This document shows positions 13,415 to 30,781 of a stretch of DNA of 32,708 bases, one piece after another (positions within the stretch are counted from its first letter, which is position 1; each line of letters begins with the position of its first letter). Below the pieces are notes generated by a model. It saw only the letters and a program-made list of their open reading frames with translations, ran no database searches and was not told the DNA's origin. Position numbers and translations under genes: made by a program. Where the stretch lies: contig NZ_VDFC01000075.1 in the NCBI RefSeq assembly GCF_008369065.1, forward strand, positions 59,101 through 91,808, read 5' to 3'. The stretch comes from Streptomyces apricus (lineage in GTDB: Bacteria; Actinomycetota; Actinomycetes; Streptomycetales; Streptomycetaceae).

Positions 13415-15865
13415 ATGGCCCGCCGCAGCACGAAGACCCCGCCTCCGGACGACTTCGAGGAGCGCATCCTCGACATCGACGTCGTCGACGAGATGCAGGG
13501 CTCCTTCCTTGAGTACGCGTACTCGGTCATCTACTCCCGAGCCCTGCCGGACGCCCGCGACGGCCTCAAACCGGTCCACCGCCGCATCGTCTACCAGATG
13601 AACGAGATGGGCCTGCGCCCCGACCGGGGCTACGTGAAGTGCGCCCGCGTCGTCGGCGAGGTCATGGGCAAGCTCCACCCCCACGGGGACGCGTCGATCT
13701 ACGACGCCCTGGTGCGCCTGGCCCAGCCCTTCTCCATGCGGCTGCCCCTGGTCGACGGCCACGGCAACTTCGGTTCGCTGGGCAACGACGACCCGCCGGC
13801 CGCCATGCGGTACACCGAGGCGCGGATGGCCGACGCCACCTCCCTCATGACGGAGTCGATCGAGGAGAACACGGTCGACTTCGCCCCGAACTACGACGGC
13901 CAGGAGCAGGAGCCCGCGGTCCTCCCGGCCGCGTACCCGAACCTCCTGGTCAACGGTGCGTCGGGCATCGCGGTCGGCATGGCGACGAACATGGCGCCGC
14001 ACAACCTGGGCGAGGTCATCGCCGCCGCCCGCCACCTGATCCGCCACCCCGGCGCCGACCTCGACACGCTCATGAAGCACGTCCCGGGACCCGACCTGCC
14101 CACCGGCGGCCGGATCGTCGGCCTGTCCGGGATCAGGGACGCGTACGAGAAGGGCCGCGGCACCTTCAAGATCCGTGCGACGGTCGCCGTGGAGAACGTG
14201 ACGGCGCGCCGCAAGGGCCTCGTCGTCACCGAACTGCCCTTCACCGTCGGTCCGGAGAAGGTGATCGCCAAGATCAAGGACCTGGTCAACGCGAAGAAAC
14301 TGCAGGGCATCGCGGACGTCAAGGACCTCACCGACCGGGCGCACGGCCTGCGACTGGTCATCGAGATCAAGAACGGCTTCGTGCCGGAGGCCGTCCTGGA
14401 GCAGCTCTACAAGCTGACGCCGATGGAGGAGTCCTTCGGCATCAACAACGTGGCGCTGGTGGACGGCCAGCCGCTCACGCTGGGCCTGAAAGAACTGCTG
14501 GAGGTGTACCTCGACCACCGCTTCGAGGTCGTGCGCCGCCGCAGCGAGTTCCGCCGCACGAAGAAGCGCGACCGGCTGCACCTGGTCGAGGGCCTGCTCG
14601 TCGCGCTGCTGGACATCGACGAGGTCATCCGGCTCATCCGCTCCAGCGAGAACTCAGCGCAGGCCAAGCAGCGCCTGATCGAGCACTTCTCGCTGAGCGA
14701 GATCCAGACGCAGTACATCCTGGACACGCCGCTGCGCCGGCTGACCAAGTTCGACCGCATCGAGCTGGAGACCGAGCGCGACCGGCTCAACGGCGAGATC
14801 GACGAGCTGACCGGCATCCTGGAGTCGGACGCCGAGCTGCGCAAGCTCGTCTCCAGCGAGCTGGCCGCGGTGGCGAAGAAGTTCGGCACCGACCGGCGCA
14901 CGGTGCTGCTGGAGTCCGCCGGCTCGACCGCCGCGGCCGTGCCGCTGCAGGTGGCGGACGACCCGTGCCGGGTGCTCCTGTCGTCGACGGGGCTGCTCGC
15001 GCGCACGGCCAACGGCGAGCCCTTCGGCGAGGGCGGCGAACGGCGCGTCAAGCACGACCTGATCGTCTCCGCCGTCCCGGCGACGGCGCTGGGCGAGGTC
15101 GGCGCGGTCACCTCCACCGGGCGGCTGCTGCGCATCAACGTCATCGACCTCCCGCAGCTCCCCGAGACCGCCGCCGCCCCGAACCTCTCCGGGGGCGCTC
15201 CGGTCTCGGAGTTCCTGGCCCTGGAGGGCGACGAGCAGGTGGTCTGCCTGACGACGCTCGACGAGTCGTCGCCGGGCCTGGCGCTCGGCACGCAGCAGGG
15301 CGTGGTCAAGCGCGTGGTGCCGGACTATCCCTCCAACAAGGAGGAGCTGGAGGTCATCACCCTCAAGGACGGCGACCGGATTGTCGGCGGGGCCGAGCTG
15401 CGCACGGGCGAGGAGGACCTGGTCTTCATCACCGACGACGCGCAGCTGCTGCGCTATCAGGCGTCCCAGGTCCGTCCGCAGGGCCGGCCGGCGGGCGGCA
15501 TGACGGGCGTGAAGCTCACGGACGGCGCCAAGGTCATCTCGTTCACGGCGGTCGACCCGGCCGTGGACGCGGTGGTCTTCACCGTGGCGGGCTCGCGCGG
15601 CACGCTGGACGACTCCGTCCAGACGACCGCCAAGCTGACCCCCTTCGACCAGTATCCGCGCAAGGGGCGCGCCACGGGCGGGGTGCGCTGCCAGCGGTTC
15701 CTGAAGGGCGAGGACTGCCTGAGCCTGGCGTGGGCGGGCCCCGCTCCGGCGCGCGCCGCCCAGAAGGACGGCACGCCCGCGGAACTGCCCGACATGGACC
15801 CACGCCGCGACGGCTCGGGGGTCTCGCTGGCGAAGACGGTGTCGGTGGTGGCGGGCCCGGCCTAG
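13415..15865 (+). CDS. parC: DNA topoisomerase IV subunit A (ParC; GyrA-like)
   Basis: This 816-aa type IIA topoisomerase subunit cuts and rejoins DNA and works with ParE to decatenate chromosomes. The catalytic tyrosine is Y133 in [10 protein letters not shown]. The quinolone-determining segment [10 protein letters not shown] spans 88-97, and the C-terminal half forms the beta-pinwheel (residues about 510-810). The canonical GyrA box is absent; at the corresponding blade it reads [11 protein letters not shown], which supports topoisomerase IV over gyrase. Residue 93, equivalent to E. coli GyrA Ser83, is alanine. ATG 13415 follows GAAGGAG by 11 nt; the upstream frame to 13220 is unlike the family. 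Its ParE partner lies about 9 kb away at 24787-26910, as in other Streptomyces. Confidence 0.95.
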
Positions 15866-15883: not shown

Positions 15884-17000
15884 GCACGTCTTCCCTGGGT
15901 GACTCCGTCTCCTGCATCCGTGATTCCGTCTCCTGCTCGGGTACGTCAGGTTCCTGTACGTACCTGAGGACGCCCCACATGCCGTGCTCGTCGGCGTGTG
16001 GGGCGTCGTCCTTGCACGCCTCCAGTTCCTTGCCGAGCGCGGGCGTGTCGATGCCCGAGCCGATGAGCACGAGCTGGGTGAGGCGCTCCGCCGGCCCGCC
16101 CGGCGGCCAGGGCTCCGGGTAGAAGCGCAGGAACCGCCCCACGGCGTGGACGGCGTAGCGGTTGCGGGGATCGGACGGGCCGAAGTCGACGTACCCCTTG
16201 ATCCGGTACAGCCCGTCGGGCCTGCTGTCGAGGAAGTCCATCAGCCGCCGGGGCGAGAGGGGTGCTTCGGAGGTGAAGGAGAGGGAGTCGTAGCCGGAGT
16301 GCAGATGCCGGTGATGCCCGTCGGTCCCGTCAGAGGCGTCCTCCCCCTCATCGCGGTGCAGGTCGTCGAAGGAGAGCTGGCCGAGGCGCTCCTCGGCCGG
16401 CCGGCAGTCGAAGAGGAACCCGGGGTCGATCCGTCCGTAGGAGGCGGGGACGACGGCGGCACCGTCGGCGAGCGTCCGCACCAGCCGGAGCACGCGGTCG
16501 GGATCGTCGGCCCGGTCCGTCTTGTTGACGACGACGAGGTCGGCGAGGGCGAGATGCCGGTCGATCTCGGGGTGCTTCTCGCGAGTGGCGTCGAACTCGG
16601 CGGCGTCGACGACCTCGACGAGACCGCCGTAGACGATGTGCGGGTTCTCGCTGGCGAGGAGCATCTTGACCAGCTCCTGCGGTTCGGCGAGGCCGCTCGC
16701 CTCGATGACGATCACGTCCATCCGGACGACGGGGCGGGCGAGCCGGTCCAGGTAGAGGTCGAGCTCGCTGGAGTCGACGGCGCAACACAGGCAGCCGTTC
16801 CCGAGGGAGACGGTGGAGTCGCCGAGCGCTCCGGCGACCGCCATGGCATCGATCTCGATGGCCCCGAAGTCGTTGACGACGGCCCCGATACGGCTGCCGC
16901 CGCTGCGGTGCAGGAGGTGGTTGAGGAGGGTGGTCTTACCGGATCCGAGGAAGCCGGCGAGGACGAGGACGGGGATCTGGCGGGGGCTCGCCTGACTCAA
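15879..17000 (-). CDS. CobW/COG0523 family GTP-binding protein (putative metallochaperone)
   Basis: The 373-aa G3E GTPase has Walker A GFLGSGKTT (residues 16-24), the metal-binding GCLCC motif (C70, C72, C73), a Walker B-like VIEASGL (98-104) and NKTD for guanine recognition (159-162). A histidine-rich linker, DGHHRHLHSG, precedes the C-terminal CobW domain (FYPEPWPPG). COG0523 proteins deliver metals such as zinc or cobalt; the metal here is not determined. The start is taken as TTG 17000 because AAAGAGGT lies 6 nt upstream. A GTG at 17027 without a ribosome site would add nine residues. I found no Zur box upstream. Confidence 0.9.
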   Translation of the reverse strand: MSQASPRQIPVLVLAGFLGSGKTTLLNHLLHRSGGSRIGAVVNDFGAIEIDAMAVAGALGDSTVSLGNGCLCCAVDSSELDLYLDRLARPVVRMDVIVIEASGLAEPQELVKMLLASENPHIVYGGLVEVVDAAEFDATREKHPEIDRHLALADLVVVNKTDRADDPDRVLRLVRTLADGAAVVPASYGRIDPGFLFDCRPAEERLGQLSFDDLHRDEGEDASDGTDGHHRHLHSGYDSLSFTSEAPLSPRRLMDFLDSRPDGLYRIKGYVDFGPSDPRNRYAVHAVGRFLRFYPEPWPPGGPAERLTQLVLIGSGIDTPALGKELEACKDDAPHADEHGMWGVLRYVQEPDVPEQETESRMQETESPREDVL

Positions 17001-17318
17001 CGTGCGACCTCTTTCACCAATGCGCACACCGGCTCACGAACCGGCTCTCACTACGGGAAACGAATGCCCACCAAGGATACGAGCCGCCGGATACCACGCG
17101 AAGTGAACGATTGTTAGCGGCGCTCGCGGGGCACACGTCAGTCAAGGCGCCGAGTTGCGCGACCCGCGCTTCCCTCCGTGCGCCGCTTCTCCGCCTCCCA
17201 GCAGAACCGATCCACTCGGCACCCTGGGAGACGGCAAGCGCCGCCCAACGCTCGCCGGTCCCCATCAGTCGACCCGCACCCGACGACCGGCGGACGGCCG
17301 CCTGATCCGGGGGTTGAC
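17001..17318. other. Intergenic region between the CobW gene and the accessory patch
   Basis: This 318-nt divergent gap has no supported gene. The first 100 nt form a lower-GC leader of the CobW gene with a small stem (CCGGTTCGTGAGCCGG). GTGAACGATTGTTA at about 17103-17116 is the most AT-rich spot and could be promoter or operator DNA. Composition drops towards the DUF6082 gene. Confidence 0.45.
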
Positions 17319-17837
17319 ATGGCCACACAGAACTTTGCACGGGGATGCGGCTCGGCCGCAGCGGTCGGGCTGACCTTCGCGGCAGCCATCGGCGTTCTCG
17401 TCGTCCAGCAGCGGCAGTCCAGGAGGCTGCGGCTGAGCGAGCAGCACATCAACCTCGCCAACCAGCAGCGACTTCACTGGGAGTTGTTGAGCAAAGCACT
17501 GGAGGACCCCGCGCTGGCCGCCGTACTCGATACGCACGACGGTGCCATTCCGTCTGCGAAGTACCGCCAGTTCCTCTTTGCCAACGCGCTGTACACCAAC
17601 GCGTTGCTCGCTTACCGCATCGGCAACGTAAATCGAGCCGAACTCTTCGGTCATCTGCGCGGTACCGTACAGAATCCAATCTTCCGCGAATACTGGGAAG
17701 TGACGCGGCCTGCTCGCGCCAGCCTGGAAGCAAGTTCGATCGAAGCCCAGGTAGGGCGCTTGATGGACAACCTCATCAACGACCTCGATGAGGCCGATAC
17801 CGACGAATGGTGGGTCGTGGGAGATCCACACGAGTGA
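17319..17837 (+). CDS. DUF6082 family membrane-anchored protein
   Basis: The 172-aa product has one N-terminal hydrophobic segment (about residues 12-30, AAAVGLTFAAAIGVLVV) followed by basic residues (RQSRRLR). This predicts a single-pass anchor with the rest cytoplasmic. The body (QQRLHWELLSKALEDPALAAVL, FANALYTNALLAYRIG, FREYWEVTRPAR) matches DUF6082, a Streptomyces-rich family often present in many copies; no biochemical role is known to me. ATG 17319 is preceded by GGGGG at 5 nt and starts just before the anchor, so the longer frame from 17178 is rejected. GC is near 60% in the line I counted, below its neighbours, suggesting acquisition. Two small paralogous genes follow on the same strand. 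Confidence 0.82.
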   Translation: MATQNFARGCGSAAAVGLTFAAAIGVLVVQQRQSRRLRLSEQHINLANQQRLHWELLSKALEDPALAAVLDTHDGAIPSAKYRQFLFANALYTNALLAYRIGNVNRAELFGHLRGTVQNPIFREYWEVTRPARASLEASSIEAQVGRLMDNLINDLDEADTDEWWVVGDPHE

Positions 17838-17895
17838 GTTCATCCGGTCGTCCGGGTTTCACGCAGCGCCGTCAACGTGGGTAGGTTTGTCGTTC

Positions 17896-18195
17896 ATGCC
17901 AGCAAACACTCCCTACCCATTCACCGTCGCGTCCTCCGACCACTTGGAGCGGGTTACGCTGAAGATCATTCGTCGCATCGGCCCCTCACCTCGCAAGCGC
18001 GGCAGCATCTCAGGTGAGACCTGCCCCGACATTTTCGAACTGAGCGACGGCAGCTTCGCCATCATCGGAACGGATGCCACAGAAGCACTCCAGGACGAAC
18101 TTCCCGCCGACGCAGCGCGGGCCGACCATGAGCGCATCGTGGTCATCAGTCGCGAGACGCTGATCCGCGCCAAGGCCGACATTCCCGACCGCTAA
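17896..18195 (+). CDS. Small conserved protein of unknown function, copy 1 of a tandem paralogous pair
   Basis: The product is about 99 aa, soluble. The core runs RRIGPSPRKRG, TCPDIFELSDGSFAIIGTD, ERIVVISRETLIRAK, DIPD. I recognise no characterised domain. The alternating pattern (FELSDGSFAIIG) looks like a short beta hairpin followed by a terminal strand-helix. The downstream gene repeats this core at about 73% identity. The start is uncertain: ATG 17896 has only a weak TAGGT upstream, and the frame stays open to 17788, inside the DUF6082 gene. The 58-nt gap from DUF6082 suggests co-transcription. Lower GC than flanking core genes. Confidence 0.72.
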   Translation: MPANTPYPFTVASSDHLERVTLKIIRRIGPSPRKRGSISGETCPDIFELSDGSFAIIGTDATEALQDELPADAARADHERIVVISRETLIRAKADIPDR

Positions 18196-18328
18196 CCGCA
18201 TCCGAGAACTGCGGTCTCATAAGCCCACGATTAGGTCACCGCCTATTCGAATAACCGTTCATCCCAGGAATCTTCTGGCGCTACGATTGATTTGCTTCGG
18301 GATGCCCCTATGGTGTTGGCTACGCTCT

Positions 18329-18574
18329 GTGACCTCACTAGACATCACGCGCCGCATTGGCGTGTCCCCACGGCAGCGCGGAAGCCTCGACGGCAACACC
18401 TGCCCAGATATTTTTGAGCTGAGCGACGGCTCTTTTGCAGTTATCGGAGCGGACAGAACCGACTCCCTTGAGGGCAAGCTACCGGCCGACGCGGGGCGGT
18501 CAAGTGACGAGCGGATCGTGGTCATCACCCGGGAAACGCTAATTCGCGCCAAGTTCGACATCCCGGATGCCTGA
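18329..18574 (+). CDS. Small conserved protein of unknown function, copy 2 of a tandem paralogous pair
   Basis: About 81 aa from GTG 18329. The core (RRIGVSPRQRG, TCPDIFELSDGSFAVIGAD, ERIVVITRETLIRAK, DIPD) aligns with copy 1 without gaps at 55 of 75 positions. Differences cluster in surface-like stretches (RTDSLEGK versus ATEALQDE), as expected after duplication and divergence. No good ribosome site is visible. ATG 18302 and TTG 18287 are in-frame alternatives whose extra residues (Trp/Cys/Leu-rich) do not match copy 1. It may be a shortened or decaying duplicate. A hairpin at 18669-18696 may terminate the cassette. Confidence 0.65.
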   Translation: MTSLDITRRIGVSPRQRGSLDGNTCPDIFELSDGSFAVIGADRTDSLEGKLPADAGRSSDERIVVITRETLIRAKFDIPDA

Positions 18575-18901
18575 GGCGAGAAAACCCCATACGGCAGGAA
18601 AACCGCATCCCAACGGACCATCCCGTCGCCCCCCAACCGCGACAGGACACTGAGATCCCCACTGCGAAAGGCCTGGCTGCACTGGCGGCCAGGCCTGCTT
18701 CCGCACGGTCACTGCCGAGAGCACCGTCTCCGGCGCTCTCGGCGCACAGGCTTCGGGCCGACGGTCCACCGGTGACCACCGGACCCGGTTGAACCCGCAC
18801 TCCACCCTTGGCCGGAGCTCGGCCGCTTGAACCGGACATCACATTGTCCAGCCACTTCCGGAGCAGTGACACCACGCGTCCCGGAAGCCTTCGGGGGTTG
18901 G
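18575..18901. other. Intergenic region after the accessory patch
   Basis: This 327-nt gap has no supported gene. It contains a terminator-like hairpin (18669-18696) and a nested dyad around 18763-18785 (CCGGTG/CACCGG within GGTCC/GGACC). The promoter of the iron-box gene should lie at its right end. GC returns to the core level here. Confidence 0.5.
18669..18696 (+). terminator. Hairpin, likely terminator of the small-gene cassette
   Basis: AGGCCTGGC (18669-18677) pairs perfectly with GCCAGGCCT (18688-18696) across a 10-nt loop; GCTT follows. It lies 94 nt after the stop codon of copy 2. Confidence 0.6.
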
Positions 18902-18920
18902 TCAGGTTAGGCTCACCTCT
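18902..18920 (+). promoter_or_regulatory. Iron box (DmdR1/DtxR-type operator) directly before the start codon
   Basis: TCAGGTTAGGCTCACCTCT agrees with the iron-box consensus TTAGGTTAGGCTCACCTAA at 16 of 19 positions. Its last base is adjacent to the GTG start at 18921. Actinobacterial DtxR/DmdR1 represses through such sites when Fe2+ is plentiful. Confidence 0.88.
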
Positions 18921-19853
18921 GTGAGTACGTGCGCGAAGGTCTCACGGGACCTGGAAGAGCCCCTCGCGGGAACTGCCGCCACGGCGAGGACGTGGTTGCT
19001 GGTCGAACAGCCGGGTCCCTGGGGCGCCGACGCGCTGACATCGAGCCACCTGGACCCCGCGCTGGGCCGCGCCCTGGACGAGGCGGCCGAGGGCACCGGC
19101 GTACGCATCGCGCTGATCCGCCGTCCGGGGCGGCACGCCGACTGCCGCACGACCGCCGAGCGCCAGGTGTACGCGGCCCACACCGCTCCGGGGAACGTAT
19201 GGCTGCACAGCGCCACCACGTCGGACCCGGAGCGGCTGCTCGACCTCGACTTCGCCGCACTCGGCGGGGGCCGGGCAGGCACCTTCGACAGGGCTCTCGG
19301 CGGCCGGCCCCACCCCGGCGGCCCGCTCGCCCTGGTGTGCACCAACGGCAAGCGCGACCGGTGCTGCGCCCTCCTGGGCCGCCCCCTCGCCGCCGAACTC
19401 GCCGCCTCCGGAGTGGACGGCGCGTGGGAGGTCACCCACCTGGGGGGCCACCGCTTCTCGCCCACCCTCCTCGTGCTGCCGTTCGGCTACGCGTACGGGC
19501 GCGCCGAGGCCCACGCGGTCAAGGAGGTCCTCCAGGGCGTGCGGGAAGGGCGTGTCGTCACCGAGGGGTGCCGTGGCAGCTCCGCGTGGGAACGGCCCGG
19601 CCAGGCCGCCGAACTGGCCGTGCGGGCGGCGGTCTCCGAGGACGCGGCCGGAGTGCTCACCGTGGTCCGCACCGAGGGCCAGGCGCCCCACTGGGAGGTG
19701 ACGGTCGCCCACACCGACGGCCGCCGCTGGCTCGTCACGGTCGCCCAGGGGGCCTCGTCGCCGCCCCGGCCGCAGAGCTGCGGCTCGCCCCTGGGGTCGC
19801 CGGCGCGGATGGACGTCCTGGCGGTGCGCGAGCTGTCGCGTACCGCGGCCTGA
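18921..19853 (+). CDS. Sucrase/ferredoxin-like family protein (thioredoxin-fold [2Fe-2S] protein), iron-regulated
   Basis: The 310-aa product belongs to the Suc_Fer-like family. Conserved ligands are in CTNGKRDRCC (C140, C148, C149) and HLGGHRF (H173, H177). This is the two-Cys/two-His arrangement described for yeast Apd1, a bis-histidinyl non-Rieske [2Fe-2S] protein. A second region (about 220-300) carries a typical C-terminal extension ending CGSPLGSPARMDV. An iron box abuts the GTG start, so expression should rise under iron starvation. A role in siderophore-iron release or iron-responsive redox chemistry is plausible but inferred. The start is either leaderless or uses TAGG, part of the operator, as ribosome site. 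Confidence 0.9.
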   Translation: MSTCAKVSRDLEEPLAGTAATARTWLLVEQPGPWGADALTSSHLDPALGRALDEAAEGTGVRIALIRRPGRHADCRTTAERQVYAAHTAPGNVWLHSATTSDPERLLDLDFAALGGGRAGTFDRALGGRPHPGGPLALVCTNGKRDRCCALLGRPLAAELAASGVDGAWEVTHLGGHRFSPTLLVLPFGYAYGRAEAHAVKEVLQGVREGRVVTEGCRGSSAWERPGQAAELAVRAAVSEDAAGVLTVVRTEGQAPHWEVTVAHTDGRRWLVTVAQGASSPPRPQSCGSPLGSPARMDVLAVRELSRTAA

Positions 19854-19941: not shown

Positions 19942-21639
19942 ATGAGTTCCCCTCCCCCTGCCCGGCGACTGCGCCTCGGGATGCCGAAGCGGATGTTCTC
20001 GCAGGTGCTGCTGATGCAGGTGGCGATCGCCGCCGGGGTCGCCGTACTCGCGACGGGGCTGTTCCTCGCCCCGCTCAGCGACCAGCTGGACGACCAGGCG
20101 ATGCGCCGCGCGCTCGCGATCGCGCAGACCGCGGCGGCGCAGCCGCAGCTCGCCGAGGAGCTGACGTCGACGGCCCCCTCGGCGGACGGGCCCGTGCAGG
20201 CCGAGGCGGAGCGGGTGCGCAGGGCGAGCGGGGCCGAGTACGTCGTGGTCATGGACATGCGCGGGGTGCGCTGGTCGCACACCAACGCCGCCGAGATCGG
20301 CAGGCGCGTCTCCACCGACCCGCGGCAGGCGCTGGCCGGCCGGGAGGTCATGCAGATCGACGACGGCACGCTGGGCCGCTCTGCGCGCGGCAAGGTGCCG
20401 TTGCGCGACGCCGACGGCCTGATCGTCGGTGCGGTGTCGGTCGGCATCGAGTACGACAGTGTGCGGGCCCGTCTGGTCCATGCGATCCCGGGGCTCTTCG
20501 CCTACGCGGGCGGCGCCCTGGCCGTCGGCGCGCTGGCGGCCTATGTGATCTCGCGGCGGGTGCAGCGGCAGACCCGCGATCTGGCCTTCTCCGACATCGC
20601 CGGGCTCCTGGCGGAGCGTGAGGCCATGCTGCACGGCATCAGGGAGGGGGTGGTCGCGCTGGACCGCGACGGCAGGATCCGGCTGCTCAACGACGAGGCA
20701 CGGCGGCTGCTCGGCCTGGGTGACGAGGCAGTGGGGCAGCCGCTCGGCGCGGCGCTCGGCGAGGGGCGTACGGCCGACGTGCTGGCCGGAACCGTCGGCG
20801 GGACCGATCTGCTCACCGTGCGCGGACAGCGGGTCCTGGTCGCGAACCGGATGCCGACCGACGACGGCGGGACCGTCGCCACCCTGCGCGACCGCACGGA
20901 GCTGGAGCAGCTGGGCCGTGAACTCGACTCCACCCGCGGTCTGATCGACGCCCTGCGCGCGCAGGACCACGAGTACGCCAACCGGATGCACACCCTGCTC
21001 GGCCTGCTGGAACTGGAGATGTTCGACGACGCCGTGGAGTTCGTCGGTGAGGTGGTCGGCGACCACCGGGCCACCGCGGAACAGGTCACCGGGAAGATCC
21101 ACGACCCGTTGCTCGCCGCCCTCCTGGTGGGCAAGGCGACCGTCGCGGCGGAGCGTGCGGTGGCCCTGCGCATCTCCGACGGCACGCTGCTCCCCGACCG
21201 GCTGGTGGATCCCCGCGGGCTGGTCACGATCGTCGGGAACCTCGTCGACAACGCGCTCGACGCCGTGGCGGGCACCCGGCACGCGCGCGTGGAGGTCGAA
21301 CTGCGGGCGGAGGGGCGTACGGCCGTGCTCGCCGTACGCGACACCGGACCGGGCGTCCCCGCGGGACAGCGCGAGCTGGTCTTCACGGACGGCTGGTCCA
21401 CCAAGGAGCCGCCGGCCCACCGTGGGCGCGGAATCGGCCTGCCGCTGGTGCGCAGGCTCGCCGAGCGGCAGGGTGGCAGCGCACGGGTCGCGGAGGCGGA
21501 GGGCGGCGGCGCGGAGTTCACGGTCGTGCTGCCGGAGGCGCTCGCGGAACCGGCGCCCGCACCCGGGCCCGGGTCCGAGTCCGAGTTCGGCCCCGCACGG
21601 GGGACGACCGCCACGACCGCCGAGGGGGAAGCGCGATGA
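19942..21639 (+). CDS. Sensor histidine kinase of the CitA/DcuS (carboxylate-sensing) family
   Basis: The 565-aa membrane kinase has TM1 about residues 21-43, an extracytoplasmic PAS/Cache domain, TM2 about 183-204, a cytoplasmic PAS domain (about 222-320), the phospho-acceptor region QDHEYANRMH (H343) and an HATPase module (VGNLVDNALDA, DTGPGVP, GRGIGLPLV). The sensor domain carries GVRWSHTN and VGAVSVGIEYD, counterparts of the citrate/C4-dicarboxylate pocket motifs of CitA and DcuS, so a di- or tricarboxylate ligand is likely. The low-complexity C-terminal tail (PAPAPGPGSE) is unusual but short. The start is ATG 19942; GTG 19936 is also possible and neither has a strong ribosome site. The stop overlaps the regulator start (ATGA). 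Confidence 0.93.
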   Translation: MSSPPPARRLRLGMPKRMFSQVLLMQVAIAAGVAVLATGLFLAPLSDQLDDQAMRRALAIAQTAAAQPQLAEELTSTAPSADGPVQAEAERVRRASGAEYVVVMDMRGVRWSHTNAAEIGRRVSTDPRQALAGREVMQIDDGTLGRSARGKVPLRDADGLIVGAVSVGIEYDSVRARLVHAIPGLFAYAGGALAVGALAAYVISRRVQRQTRDLAFSDIAGLLAEREAMLHGIREGVVALDRDGRIRLLNDEARRLLGLGDEAVGQPLGAALGEGRTADVLAGTVGGTDLLTVRGQRVLVANRMPTDDGGTVATLRDRTELEQLGRELDSTRGLIDALRAQDHEYANRMHTLLGLLELEMFDDAVEFVGEVVGDHRATAEQVTGKIHDPLLAALLVGKATVAAERAVALRISDGTLLPDRLVDPRGLVTIVGNLVDNALDAVAGTRHARVEVELRAEGRTAVLAVRDTGPGVPAGQRELVFTDGWSTKEPPAHRGRGIGLPLVRRLAERQGGSARVAEAEGGGAEFTVVLPEALAEPAPAPGPGSESEFGPARGTTATTAEGEAR

Positions 21640-22316
21640 TCGAGGTACTGGTCGTGGACGACGACGTCCGGGTCGCGCGGGTCAACGCCGCCTACGTGGG
21701 GAAGGTCGCCGGCTTCCACGTGGCGGGCGAGGCGCACTCGGCGGCGGAGGCGCTGCGGCAGGTGGAGGCGCTGCCCCGGCTGGACCTGGTGCTGCTCGAC
21801 CACTACCTGCCCGACGACACGGGACTCGCGGTCGTACGGGAGATGCGGCGGCGCGGCCACCAGACCGACGTGATCATGGTGACCGCGGCGCGGGACGTCA
21901 CCACGGTCCAGGCGGCGATGCGGCACGGCGCCCTCCAGTACCTGGTGAAACCGTTCGCCTTCGCCGGGCTCCGCGCGAAGCTGGAGGCGTACGCCGAGCT
22001 GCGCCGCACCCTGGACGGCGGCGGCGAGGCCGAGCAGGCCGAGGTCGACCGGATCTTCGGCGCCCTCTCGGCGGGCACCGAACCGGATCTGCCCAAGGGG
22101 CACTCACCCGCCACCGCGGAGGCCGTGCGCCAGGCCCTGATGAGCGCGGAGAGGCCCCTGTCCGCCCAGGAGCTCGCCGACCGGACCGGGCTCAGCCGGC
22201 AGACCGCCCAGCGCTACCTGAAGCTCCTGGAGCGCACCGGGCGGGCCACGCTGAGCCTGAAGTACGGCGACGCGGGCCGCCCCGAACACCGCTACGTCTG
22301 GGCGACCCGCGCCTGA
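21636..22316 (+). CDS. Response regulator of the CitB/DcuR family
   Basis: The 226-aa product has a receiver domain with acidic D8-D10, phospho-acceptor D55 (VLLDHYLPD), T83 and K105 (LVKPF). A C-terminal helix-turn-helix follows (about residues 165-215, SAQELADRTGLSRQTAQRYLKLLE). It overlaps the kinase gene by 4 nt and is certainly its partner. CitB-family regulators activate carboxylate uptake and metabolism. The convergent DUF485/symporter pair is the nearest transport target candidate, though no regulator site was identified. Confidence 0.94.
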   Translation: MIEVLVVDDDVRVARVNAAYVGKVAGFHVAGEAHSAAEALRQVEALPRLDLVLLDHYLPDDTGLAVVREMRRRGHQTDVIMVTAARDVTTVQAAMRHGALQYLVKPFAFAGLRAKLEAYAELRRTLDGGGEAEQAEVDRIFGALSAGTEPDLPKGHSPATAEAVRQALMSAERPLSAQELADRTGLSRQTAQRYLKLLERTGRATLSLKYGDAGRPEHRYVWATRA

Positions 22317-27350: not shown

Positions 27351-27581
27351 GTGACTACTGTTCTGACCCCCGCGAGCCCGCTGACGGCCGCTGACCGCTG
27401 CGACCGTTGCGGCGCCCAGGCATATCTGCGCGTCGTCCTCCTCAGCGGTGGTGAACTGCTCTTCTGCGCCCACCACGGGCGCAAGTTCGAGCCGGAACTC
27501 AAGAAGATCGCCGCTGAGATACAGGACGAGACGGAGCGGTTGACCGCCACTCCGGCAAGCGCCAACGACGAAGAGCACTGA
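27351..27581 (+). CDS. DUF7455 family small zinc-ribbon-like protein
   Basis: The 76-aa product carries four probable metal ligands: CDRC (C17, C20) and CAHH (C39 with H42 or H41), separated by the beta pattern QAYLRVVLLSGGELLF. This suggests a single zinc ribbon. A charged helix (KFEPELKKIAAEIQDE) makes up the C-terminus. The family is conserved in actinobacteria beside the principal sigma factor and topoisomerase genes; I know no experimentally established role. GTG 27351 has GAAGAGG 4-5 nt upstream. A strong terminator follows, so the gene is monocistronic. Confidence 0.88.
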   Translation: MTTVLTPASPLTAADRCDRCGAQAYLRVVLLSGGELLFCAHHGRKFEPELKKIAAEIQDETERLTATPASANDEEH

Positions 27582-28836: not shown

Positions 28837-30375
28837 CTAGTCGAGGTAGTCGCGCAGGACCTGCGAGCGCGAGGGGTGACGCAGCTTCGACATCGTCTTG
28901 GACTCGATCTGGCGGATCCGCTCACGCGTCACGCCGTACACCTTGCCGATCTCGTCGAGCGTCTTCGGCTGGCCGTCGGTGAGGCCGAAGCGCATCGAGA
29001 CGACGCCCGCCTCGCGCTCGGAGAGGGTGTCCAGGACGGAGTGCAGCTGCTCCTGGAGGAGCGTGAAGCTGACCGCGTCGGCCGGGACGACCGCCTCGGA
29101 GTCCTCGATGAGGTCACCGAACTCGCTGTCGCCGTCCTCACCCAGGGGGGTGTGGAGGGAGATCGGCTCACGCCCGTACTTCTGGACCTCGATGACCTTC
29201 TCGGGGGTCATGTCGAGTTCCTTCGCCAGCTCCTCCGGAGTGGGCTCGCGGCCCAGGTCCTGGAGCATCTGGCGCTGCACGCGCGCGAGCTTGTTGATGA
29301 CCTCGACCATGTGCACCGGGATACGGATGGTGCGGGCCTGGTCGGCCATGGCGCGGGTGATCGCCTGACGGATCCACCACGTGGCGTACGTCGAGAACTT
29401 GTAGCCCTTGGTGTAGTCGAACTTCTCCACCGCGCGGATCAGACCGAGGTTGCCCTCCTGGATGAGGTCCAGGAAGAGCATGCCGCGGCCGGTGTACCGC
29501 TTGGCCAGGGAGACCACCAGACGGAGGTTCGCCTCCAGGAGGTGGTTCTTGGCGCGGCGGCCGTCCTCGGCGATGATCTCCAGCTCGCGCTTGAGCTTCG
29601 GCGCCAGCTTGTCGGCGTTGGCCAGCTTGTCCTCGGCGAACAGACCGGCCTCGATGCGCTTGGCGAGCTCGACCTCCTGCTCGGCGTTGAGCAGCGGGAC
29701 CTTGCCGATCTGCTTGAGGTAGTCCTTGACAGGGTCGGCGGTGGCACCGGCGGCGGCGACCTGCTGCGCGGGCGCGTCGTCCTCGTCCTCGTCGGACAGG
29801 ACGAAGCCCTGCGCGCCGTCCTCGGTGGGCTCCTCGCCCGCCTTGGCGGTGCCGGGGGTCTCCTCGACGGCCTCTTCGTCGACCAGCTCGGCGTCGTCCT
29901 TCTTGCCCGCGGTCTTCTTCGCCGCGGTCTTCTTGGCGACGGTCTTCTTCGCGACGGCCTTCTTGGCCGCGGCCTTCTTGGCGACGGGCTTCCCGGCGGA
30001 CGCGTCCTCGTCGGGGACGTCGGTGGCGGGCATCACCGGCGTGGCGGTGGCGGTGGCCTTCTTGGCCGTGGCCGTCTTCGCCGCGACGGTCTTGGTGGCG
30101 GTGCGCTTGGCCGGACTCTTCGCTGCGACGCTCTTCCGGGTGCGCTTGGGCTCCGCGGCACTGACCATCAGCGTCACACCCTCTTCCTCCAGGATCTGGT
30201 TGAGGCTGCGCAGTACGTTCTTCCACTGAGTGGCCGGGATCTGGTCAGCTTCGAAGGCCCGACGCACGTCGTCGCCGGCGATCTGCCCCTCGGCCTTTCC
30301 CCGCTCAATCAGAGCCATGACAGAGACGGACTCGGCGATCTCCGGCGGGAGCGTACGGGATGTGCTGGCCGACAC
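28837..30375 (-). CDS. hrdB: Principal RNA polymerase sigma factor HrdB (sigma-70, RpoD class)
   Basis: The 512-aa essential sigma factor directs RNA polymerase to vegetative promoters. Region 1.2 has [11 protein letters not shown]. Region 2 is complete, with [38 protein letters not shown] and the -10 recognition/melting segment [16 protein letters not shown]. Region 3 and region 4 follow ([41 protein letters not shown]). Before these comes a long Lys/Ala-rich stretch (about 73-165, [14 protein letters not shown] repeats) and an acidic patch (SDEDEDDAP), as in S. coelicolor HrdB. The start is GTG 30375 because GAGAGG lies 6 nt upstream; TTG 30381 would sit on that site. Terminated by a strong hairpin. 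Confidence 0.98.
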
Positions 30376-30781
30376 GAACAACCTCTCGGAACGTTGGAAA
30401 ACGGCTTCCGGCCCCGTCCACTGCGGACCGGAGCCGACGACCGACGGCTTGGAGTGGGCCGGCGGCGTGGGCGAGAACCGGAAAGAGTCACAGCGCCTGA
30501 AGCGGCGCCCGTATTCCCTGCTCGGCTGTCACCTCTTAGGTCATCGCGCTGTCCCGAAGAGCGTTACGCCCAATCTGCGTGGCCCGAGTCACACCCCGTA
30601 AGCGCATAAAAACAGCCATACACGGTCAGAGGTGGTCAGTCGACGATTACAGCGTCTCATCACACCGCCGGGCCCCGCCGGATCCTCGAGGAATCCGTCG
30701 GGGCCCGGCGGCGGACCGCTCCCCGGCCCGGCCGTGCCGTACGGGGCAGCCGCTCCCGACCGCACCACCGGCGGTACGCGA
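30376..30781. other. hrdB promoter region and end of the whiH transcript
   Basis: This 406-nt gap has no supported gene. On the minus strand it holds a GGGAAT motif (30518-30513) resembling the -35 of SigmaR promoters, an AT-rich block TGTTTTTATG near 30605, and the terminator hairpin of the upstream whiH gene (30665-30711). An hrdB leader of more than 100 nt is likely. Confidence 0.5.
30665..30711 (-). terminator. Terminator of whiH
   Basis: CCGCCGGGCCCCG (30665-30677) pairs with CGGGGCCCGGCGG (30699-30711). After one mismatch, CGGAT pairs with ATCCG, and the loop region itself contains CCTCGAGG. It lies about 70 nt after the whiH stop codon. Confidence 0.8.

Follow-up and report, generated by a model that had tools for sequence, protein, structure and literature searches.

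A cassette of three genes in Streptomyces apricus (contig NZ_VDFC01000075.1) carries a DUF6082 gene followed by two genes of one small-protein family, labelled SM here. The cassette is an accessory insert whose site is fixed, with a gene for a CobW-family GTPase on one side and one for a sucrase/ferredoxin-like protein (Suc_Fer) on the other. All three genes are under purifying selection, and SM is linked to DUF6082 and co-varies with it. In the preferred reading, to which a probability of about 0.4 was assigned, an actinobacterial SM-DUF6879-DUF6082 module is present here in reduced form, and SM controls a partner protein, in this case most likely DUF6082. Positions refer to the window, the whole stretch of 32,708 nucleotides that was analysed.

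Genes of the cassette and its flanks

The features of the locus were as follows. The ends of the accessory segment are approximate and were taken from relatives without the insert; the last three genes were named from sequence and S. coelicolor gene order.

17319..17837, + strand, DUF6082 gene, 172 aa (PF19560, E 5.5e-50)
17896..18195, + strand, small protein SM1 (SM profile, E 4e-42)
18329..18574, + strand, small protein SM2, 81 aa from GTG (SM profile, E 3e-39)
17084..18850, strand not applicable, accessory segment
15879..17000, - strand, left flank, CobW-family GTPase (PF02492, E 3.7e-44)
18921..19853, + strand, right flank, sucrase/ferredoxin-like protein, Suc_Fer (PF06999, E 4.3e-22)
13415-15865, + strand, parC/gyrA-like gene
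19981-21639, + strand, histidine kinase
21636-22316, + strand, response regulator

The initial annotation had proposed three genes on one strand with DUF6082 first, and the profile match and gene calls agree. Genes called from CobW to Suc_Fer were DUF6082 and SM only, so an XRE regulator is absent from the insert; no STAND gene was present either. Pfam detected neither a caspase-superfamily nor another known effector domain in the three products, and no caspase gene in either flank. At 16900-19000 there was no Rfam match. No promoter-like sites were found, and terminator-like sites numbered 2 against 1.5 expected. Repeats beyond the SM1/SM2 duplication were short and chance-like only, with no clear direct repeats at the insert ends. 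The citrate synthase pair that relatives usually carry between the cassette place and Suc_Fer (44 citrate synthase genes in this gap in 23 loci) is missing from window positions 18575-18920. Elsewhere in the window, small genes of low GC3 were called at 27351-27581 (0.79) and 30362-30601 (0.785, containing a TTA codon); these may be real or miscalled.

The product of 17319-17837 matched Pfam DUF6082, a family of uncharacterised function, at 169.6 bits (curated cut-off 26.7) over residues 5-160. It is laid out as an N-terminal hydrophobic segment followed by a long helix and a helical bundle, ending near a conserved DEWWVVG. An AlphaFold2 model was all helical (mean pLDDT 88.4). Foldseek returned no match to the DUF6082 or SM model at E <= 0.001, VIA fold comparison of DUF6082 gave middling helical-bundle rows only (best Z 5.7, not used), and the search for solved relatives gave two non-significant matches (E 0.11 and 0.37). 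A search of the open-access literature found no paper naming DUF6082 or DUF6879. A second DUF6082 gene in the same genome (G000:C252:372090-372563; L093, L096) has no SM neighbour, and at L017:774-1340 DUF6082 extends over two adjoining open reading frames in the same frame, which is likely a broken copy.

The initial annotation had described the DUF6082 product as membrane-anchored. The window copy fits this description, its hydrophobic N-terminal stretch giving a best 19-residue Kyte-Doolittle mean of 2.09. Across 60 loci (59 gathered plus the window), 27 had a CobW neighbour (site A), 19 lay at site B, marked by a 2-oxoacid:ferredoxin oxidoreductase-like neighbour and NmrA/HxlR-like genes (named from sequence), and none had both. 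A mean of at least 1.6 was reached by 17 of 30 DUF6082 copies at site A and by 0 of 20 at site B, by hydropathy only. By this measure, membrane anchoring is not constant across the family.

SM1 and SM2 are 72% identical over 78 codons, which agrees with the 55 of 75 shared residues first noted, and the TCPDIFELSDG and RETLIRAK blocks were found in both. Both copies also match the SM profile and its G-CPD-[IL]-FEL-DG-FAVIG core. The SM1 open frame spans 17788-18195, with an ATG at 17896 (99 aa) and a CTG at 17959 (78 aa). The latter occupies the start position of most relatives, where the codon read TTG in 50 and GTG in 23 of 109 pattern matches in the loci read; copies whose N-termini are longer also match the pattern, and L092 duplicates the window. 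As the conserved position reads CTG, SM1 starts either with this rare codon or with the ATG at 17896; the homologous start is probably CTG 17959. The SM2 open frame spans 18287-18574 and begins at TTG 18287; its GTG at 18329 (81 aa) is matched by GTG in L034 and L035.

No Pfam, NCBIfam or PADLOC family matched the SM proteins above cut-off. Pfam hSac2 was rejected as their family, the match being a sub-threshold chance one (E 0.2). The SM model, with few strands and one helix at the C-terminus, was of low confidence (pLDDT 74, pTM 0.54), with no solved relatives found and no VIA fold comparison at Z >= 2. SM is probably a small, cytoplasmic, dedicated partner domain.

The small partner is duplicated in the window as first described, and tandem copies are a minority in the family: separate tandem frames occurred in 10 of 89 loci, and three more (L020, L021, L067) carry two SM domains in one fused reading frame of ~192 aa. 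SM2 of the window clustered with SM2 of L033, L034 and L035 (support 100/96) in a tree that is poorly resolved outside this clade. The duplication thus predates those species and both copies have been kept; in L033, SM2 lies in reversed orientation.

Insertion site, composition and selection

In a sample of 61 Streptomyces genomes, CobW was found in 57 (E <= 1e-100) and Suc_Fer in 32 (E <= 1e-40). The two lay within 6 kb of each other in 25 of the 57 CobW genomes and farther apart in four (G032, G047, G055, G058); in the remaining CobW genomes Suc_Fer had no match at E <= 1e-40 or lay on another contig. The DUF6082-SM pair was present in 10 of the 25 and absent from 15, and in 6 of these 15 just 143-198 bases separate the CobW and Suc_Fer matches. 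Three genomes with no Suc_Fer nearby (G001, G021, G030) carry the pair beside CobW, and G009 retains a DUF6082 fragment without SM as a remnant. BLAST homology with pair-less relatives ended at 17083 (G026, L244) or 17085 (G032, L255/L254) and resumed at 18852 or 18849, respectively; other empty sites aligned less far (ends 16977-17038 and 18900-18904). As the initial annotation had proposed, the DUF6082-SM segment is accessory; its site between CobW and Suc_Fer is a fixed one. Nor is the locus universal in the genus, SM being present in 135 of 295 Streptomyces genomes; in a class sample of 246 genomes SM was found in 23 and DUF6082 in 24.

Apart from the window itself, G032 gave the best match to CobW and also to Suc_Fer (87% identity for either gene). 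Its two genes lie 35.8 kb apart (L254/L255, G032:C80:7000-45500), and the stretch between them contains transporters, citrate synthases and a series of genes resembling biosynthetic ones, and neither SM nor DUF6082.

GC content in 400-base windows drops to 0.58-0.62 at the cassette. The cassette genes have GC of 0.614-0.623, against 0.733 +/- 0.024 for the 22 other window genes longer than 400 bases, and GC3 of 0.750, 0.758 and 0.716, against 0.946 +/- 0.023 for the 22 other genes. The low GC reported at first was thus confirmed, and its use as a mark of recent acquisition was not: GC3 is low throughout both families (SM 0.774 +/- 0.080, n=102; DUF6082 0.835 +/- 0.062, n=94) and is therefore a family trait. 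Recent horizontal gain with low GC as the sole evidence was accordingly rejected.

Against L033 (S. beigongshangae), dN/dS was 0.092 for DUF6082, 0.104 for SM1, 0.078 for SM2 and 0.253 for CobW, and all three cassette genes are under purifying selection in this comparison. SM1 reached 0.244 against L035, SM2 values were 0.078-0.093, and all cassette pairs measured fell at 0.03-0.24, with 0.17-0.29 for the CobW neighbour. These values were obtained by simple counting from pairs with dS of ~0.6-1.0, near saturation for such short genes; dS between SM1 and SM2 was 1.5. The low dN/dS indicates that the cassette genes are functional. Neutral passenger genes in a permissive gap would account for the low codon adaptation, the patchy presence and the one remnant, but would hardly show a dN/dS of 0.08-0.24, no higher than the 0.17-0.29 of CobW, or a linkage conserved across families. 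This explanation is already disfavoured by the dN/dS values and is very improbable.

Linkage of SM with DUF6082, DUF6879 and NB-ARC/TPR proteins

Among loci gathered with SM as query, 84 of 89 had a DUF6082 match, fragments counted. In the 61 Streptomyces genomes, which were not selected for linkage, 25 of 41 SM places lay within 2.5 kb of DUF6082 against 0.05 expected, and conversely 25 of 40 DUF6082 places were linked to SM at this distance. The survey kept SM at E <= 1e-9 (41 of 54 rows; the 13 dropped had E of 3.6e-5 to 0.0087, and one of them adjoins a G007 DUF6082 gene counted as alone) and DUF6082 at E <= 1e-11 (40 of 43 rows). The best 21 SM matches (E <= 1e-35) were all DUF6082-linked. 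The linkage supposed by the initial annotation was borne out, with SM homologues adjoining DUF6082 both in Streptomyces and in other genera. At the survey thresholds, 15 of 40 DUF6082 genes had no SM within 2.5 kb and 16 of 41 SM places had no DUF6082; since each is found apart, neither requires the other in every genome.

SM and DUF6082 distances across 58 site A loci were correlated (r 0.506), also given the CobW neighbour (partial r 0.481). None of 2000 permutations reached this partial value, the largest being 0.216. The compact unit first suggested is in this sense co-inherited. The correlation speaks for a SM-DUF6082 unit and not for contact between the proteins, since block transfer would produce the same correlation.

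A toxin-antitoxin system, with DUF6082 as predicted membrane toxin, SM as predicted antitoxin and the tandem SM as a spare or decoy, would fit a small protein with a partner and patchy presence, the decayed remnant in G009 and the occurrence on plasmids (SM in 3 and DUF6082 in 2 of 72,556 records). The 15 of 40 DUF6082 genes without nearby SM include some long open frames, and an active toxin there would be intolerable unless another antitoxin were present. SM usually follows DUF6082 in Streptomyces and elsewhere is often separated from it by other genes, the DUF6082 proteins of site B have no clear membrane segment, and phage records held no SM or DUF6082 match. Such a system is considered unlikely.

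Where SM occurs in Streptomyces without DUF6082, DUF6879 (PF21806) adjoins it in 13 of 16 places. Of the other three, L234 has an NB-ARC/TPR gene as its direct neighbour, L107 an HTH gene together with a TPR-like remnant, and L233 none of these. Of the 13 SM places in genera other than Streptomyces, 12 adjoin DUF6879, 8 have DUF6082 and 7 have both, as judged with our own profiles; a Pfam scan confirmed DUF6879 in all five of those 12 places that were scanned. In total, DUF6879 was Pfam-confirmed in 14 proteins of the SM neighbourhoods scanned for it. Several loci, L266, L267, L269, L276 and L277 among them, show an 8-base overlap between the SM gene and that for DUF6879, which suggests coupled translation. 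The relative orientation of DUF6082 and SM varies, the two lying on opposite strands in, for example, L072, L077, L256, L257 and L270.

DUF6879 was found in 52 of the 61 Streptomyces genomes. The window's genome has two PF21806 matches, and both lie away from the window's contig C283, on C298 and C244; of the three-gene module SM-DUF6879-DUF6082, the DUF6879 gene is absent at the window locus. The same genome has 32 DUF397 matches in all, and one of its two DUF6879 genes lies beside XRE and DUF397 genes.

A small domain, CP, often lies N-terminal to, or is encoded directly upstream of, Streptomyces DUF6879 and carries the motif CPxxxED-DTG-VVQG-TD-VPRELL. In such cases an XRE-DUF5753 regulator follows CP-DUF6879 (one regulator was domain-scanned), and at L236 a CP-DUF6879 pair and a DUF6082 gene are divergent neighbours. 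In a single pairwise test with hhalign, the SM and CP profiles aligned over 48 columns (probability 91.2, E 1e-6), which is suggestive of SM being a distant relative of CP. SM was rejected as a relative of DUF397, with a probability of 0.3 in both profile comparisons made, one of them by hhalign, and no Pfam DUF397 match. The window thus resembles DUF6879 systems in having a CP-like SM that adjoins DUF6879 in other genomes, and differs from them in that its insert has no DUF6879 or XRE gene.

SM-DUF6879 also adjoins NB-ARC/TPR proteins in Streptomyces and other genera. Among 13 large ATPase-like proteins scanned beside SM or SM-DUF6879, 11 passed the NB-ARC cut-off (L083 and L232 failed). On a Kitasatospora plasmid (L264:5236-8280), DUF6879, NB-ARC and TPR form a single chain of 1014 aa encoded directly after the SM gene. 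The initial view of an anchored DUF plus a duplicated partner is therefore too narrow: the small domain goes with DUF6879, and together these two also neighbour NB-ARC/TPR ATPases. As SM is shared with DUF6879 and with immune-receptor-like ATPases, the DUF6082-SM pair is probably one arm of a hitherto unstudied network for signalling or defence.

An immune branch of NLR-like type could be built on these neighbours, with SM-DUF6879 as sensor or adaptor driving STAND ATPases or, elsewhere, DUF6082 in abortive phage defence. The NB-ARC/TPR neighbours and the fusion protein would support it, and the passages cited of PMC7159879 and PMC8195603 discuss similar ideas for the conflict systems of multicellular bacteria. 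The NB-ARC/TPR STAND ATPases of actinobacterial conflict systems, which elsewhere adjoin or are fused to SM-DUF6879, are however absent from the window insert. No known defence system was recognised, the three window products having no match among PADLOC models of systems described by 2023. A defence gene that is rapidly swapped would be less expected to show such a stable, specific site in the core and such strong purifying selection, and it is XRE regulators that accompany the CP-DUF6879 branch. We regard this role as improbable for the window pair. The EACC1-caspase conflict system is also an actinobacterial unit of two genes, with a single membrane-spanning component, but the three window products have no caspase or known effector domain.

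Possible roles of the pair

In the preferred reading, that of a reduced SM-DUF6879-DUF6082 module, SM would bind its partner protein and either hold it inactive or couple it to a signal. DUF6082 would provide the output; in the window, its N-terminal segment would hold it at the membrane. The window locus would have lost DUF6879, and one or both SM copies would contact the DUF6082 helical bundle directly; alternatively, the window SM may contact a DUF6879 protein encoded elsewhere in the genome, by one of the two genes there. The module as a whole could serve as a stress, development or conflict switch. The occurrence of SM and DUF6082 apart from each other, their varying orientation and the missing membrane segment at site B speak against this reading. 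We infer SM-partner control from the linkage, and likewise we infer physical binding, inhibition, a membrane output and a conflict or developmental role.

A regulator of development or stress, in which the pair would tune differentiation by analogy with XRE-DUF397 pairs, was also weighed. Such pairs (Scr1/Scr2 type) had been proposed as toxin-antitoxin systems and are in fact regulators of antibiotic production according to the passages cited (PMC6262351, PMC10364602); the part of PMC10364602 covered held nothing on DUF6082. They resemble the present genes in combining a small beta-rich actinobacterial protein with a partner, in many copies that are experimentally little understood, and differ in that SM has no DUF397 profile match and the insert no XRE gene.

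In S. coelicolor, citA4 is SCO5832 and parC is SCO5836 (passages cited of PMC3905888, PMC9739823 and PMC12323332), which leaves SCO5833-SCO5835 between them. By gene order only, the slot would be SCO5833-SCO5834, with SCO5834 as candidate DUF6082 and SCO5835 expected to be CobW. SCO5834, a 'hypothetical protein membrane spanning', is listed in the part of PMC3610822 covered with log2 values of 1.5, 3.1 and 3.2 for second against first mycelium, a rise of about 8-fold or more in the second mycelium. This rise would favour the developmental role. The list, however, as described in that part of the source, holds only genes more than 75% similar in five species, which fits a patchy gene badly, and the identity of SCO5834 with DUF6082 rests on gene order, not sequence. 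A developmental role for the pair is quite unlikely.

More broadly, and only tentatively, SM and CP may be one interchangeable control domain that acts mostly via DUF6879, so that a single sensing or restraint mechanism serves three outputs. If this were true, one output would be a membrane protein (DUF6082), another transcription (XRE-DUF5753) and the third NLR-like NB-ARC/TPR ATPases. An immune or programmed-death network so far unrecognised would then have its minimal membrane branch in the window, with the control domain doubled and the intermediate, DUF6879, dropped.

SM, DUF6082 and DUF6879 are common in actinobacteria, and linking them to one another, to XRE regulators and to NB-ARC/TPR proteins makes of them one testable system. 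As a laboratory entry point the pair comprises two genes, which lie at a constant position with parC on one side and the citrate synthase genes on the other; S. coelicolor probably has them.
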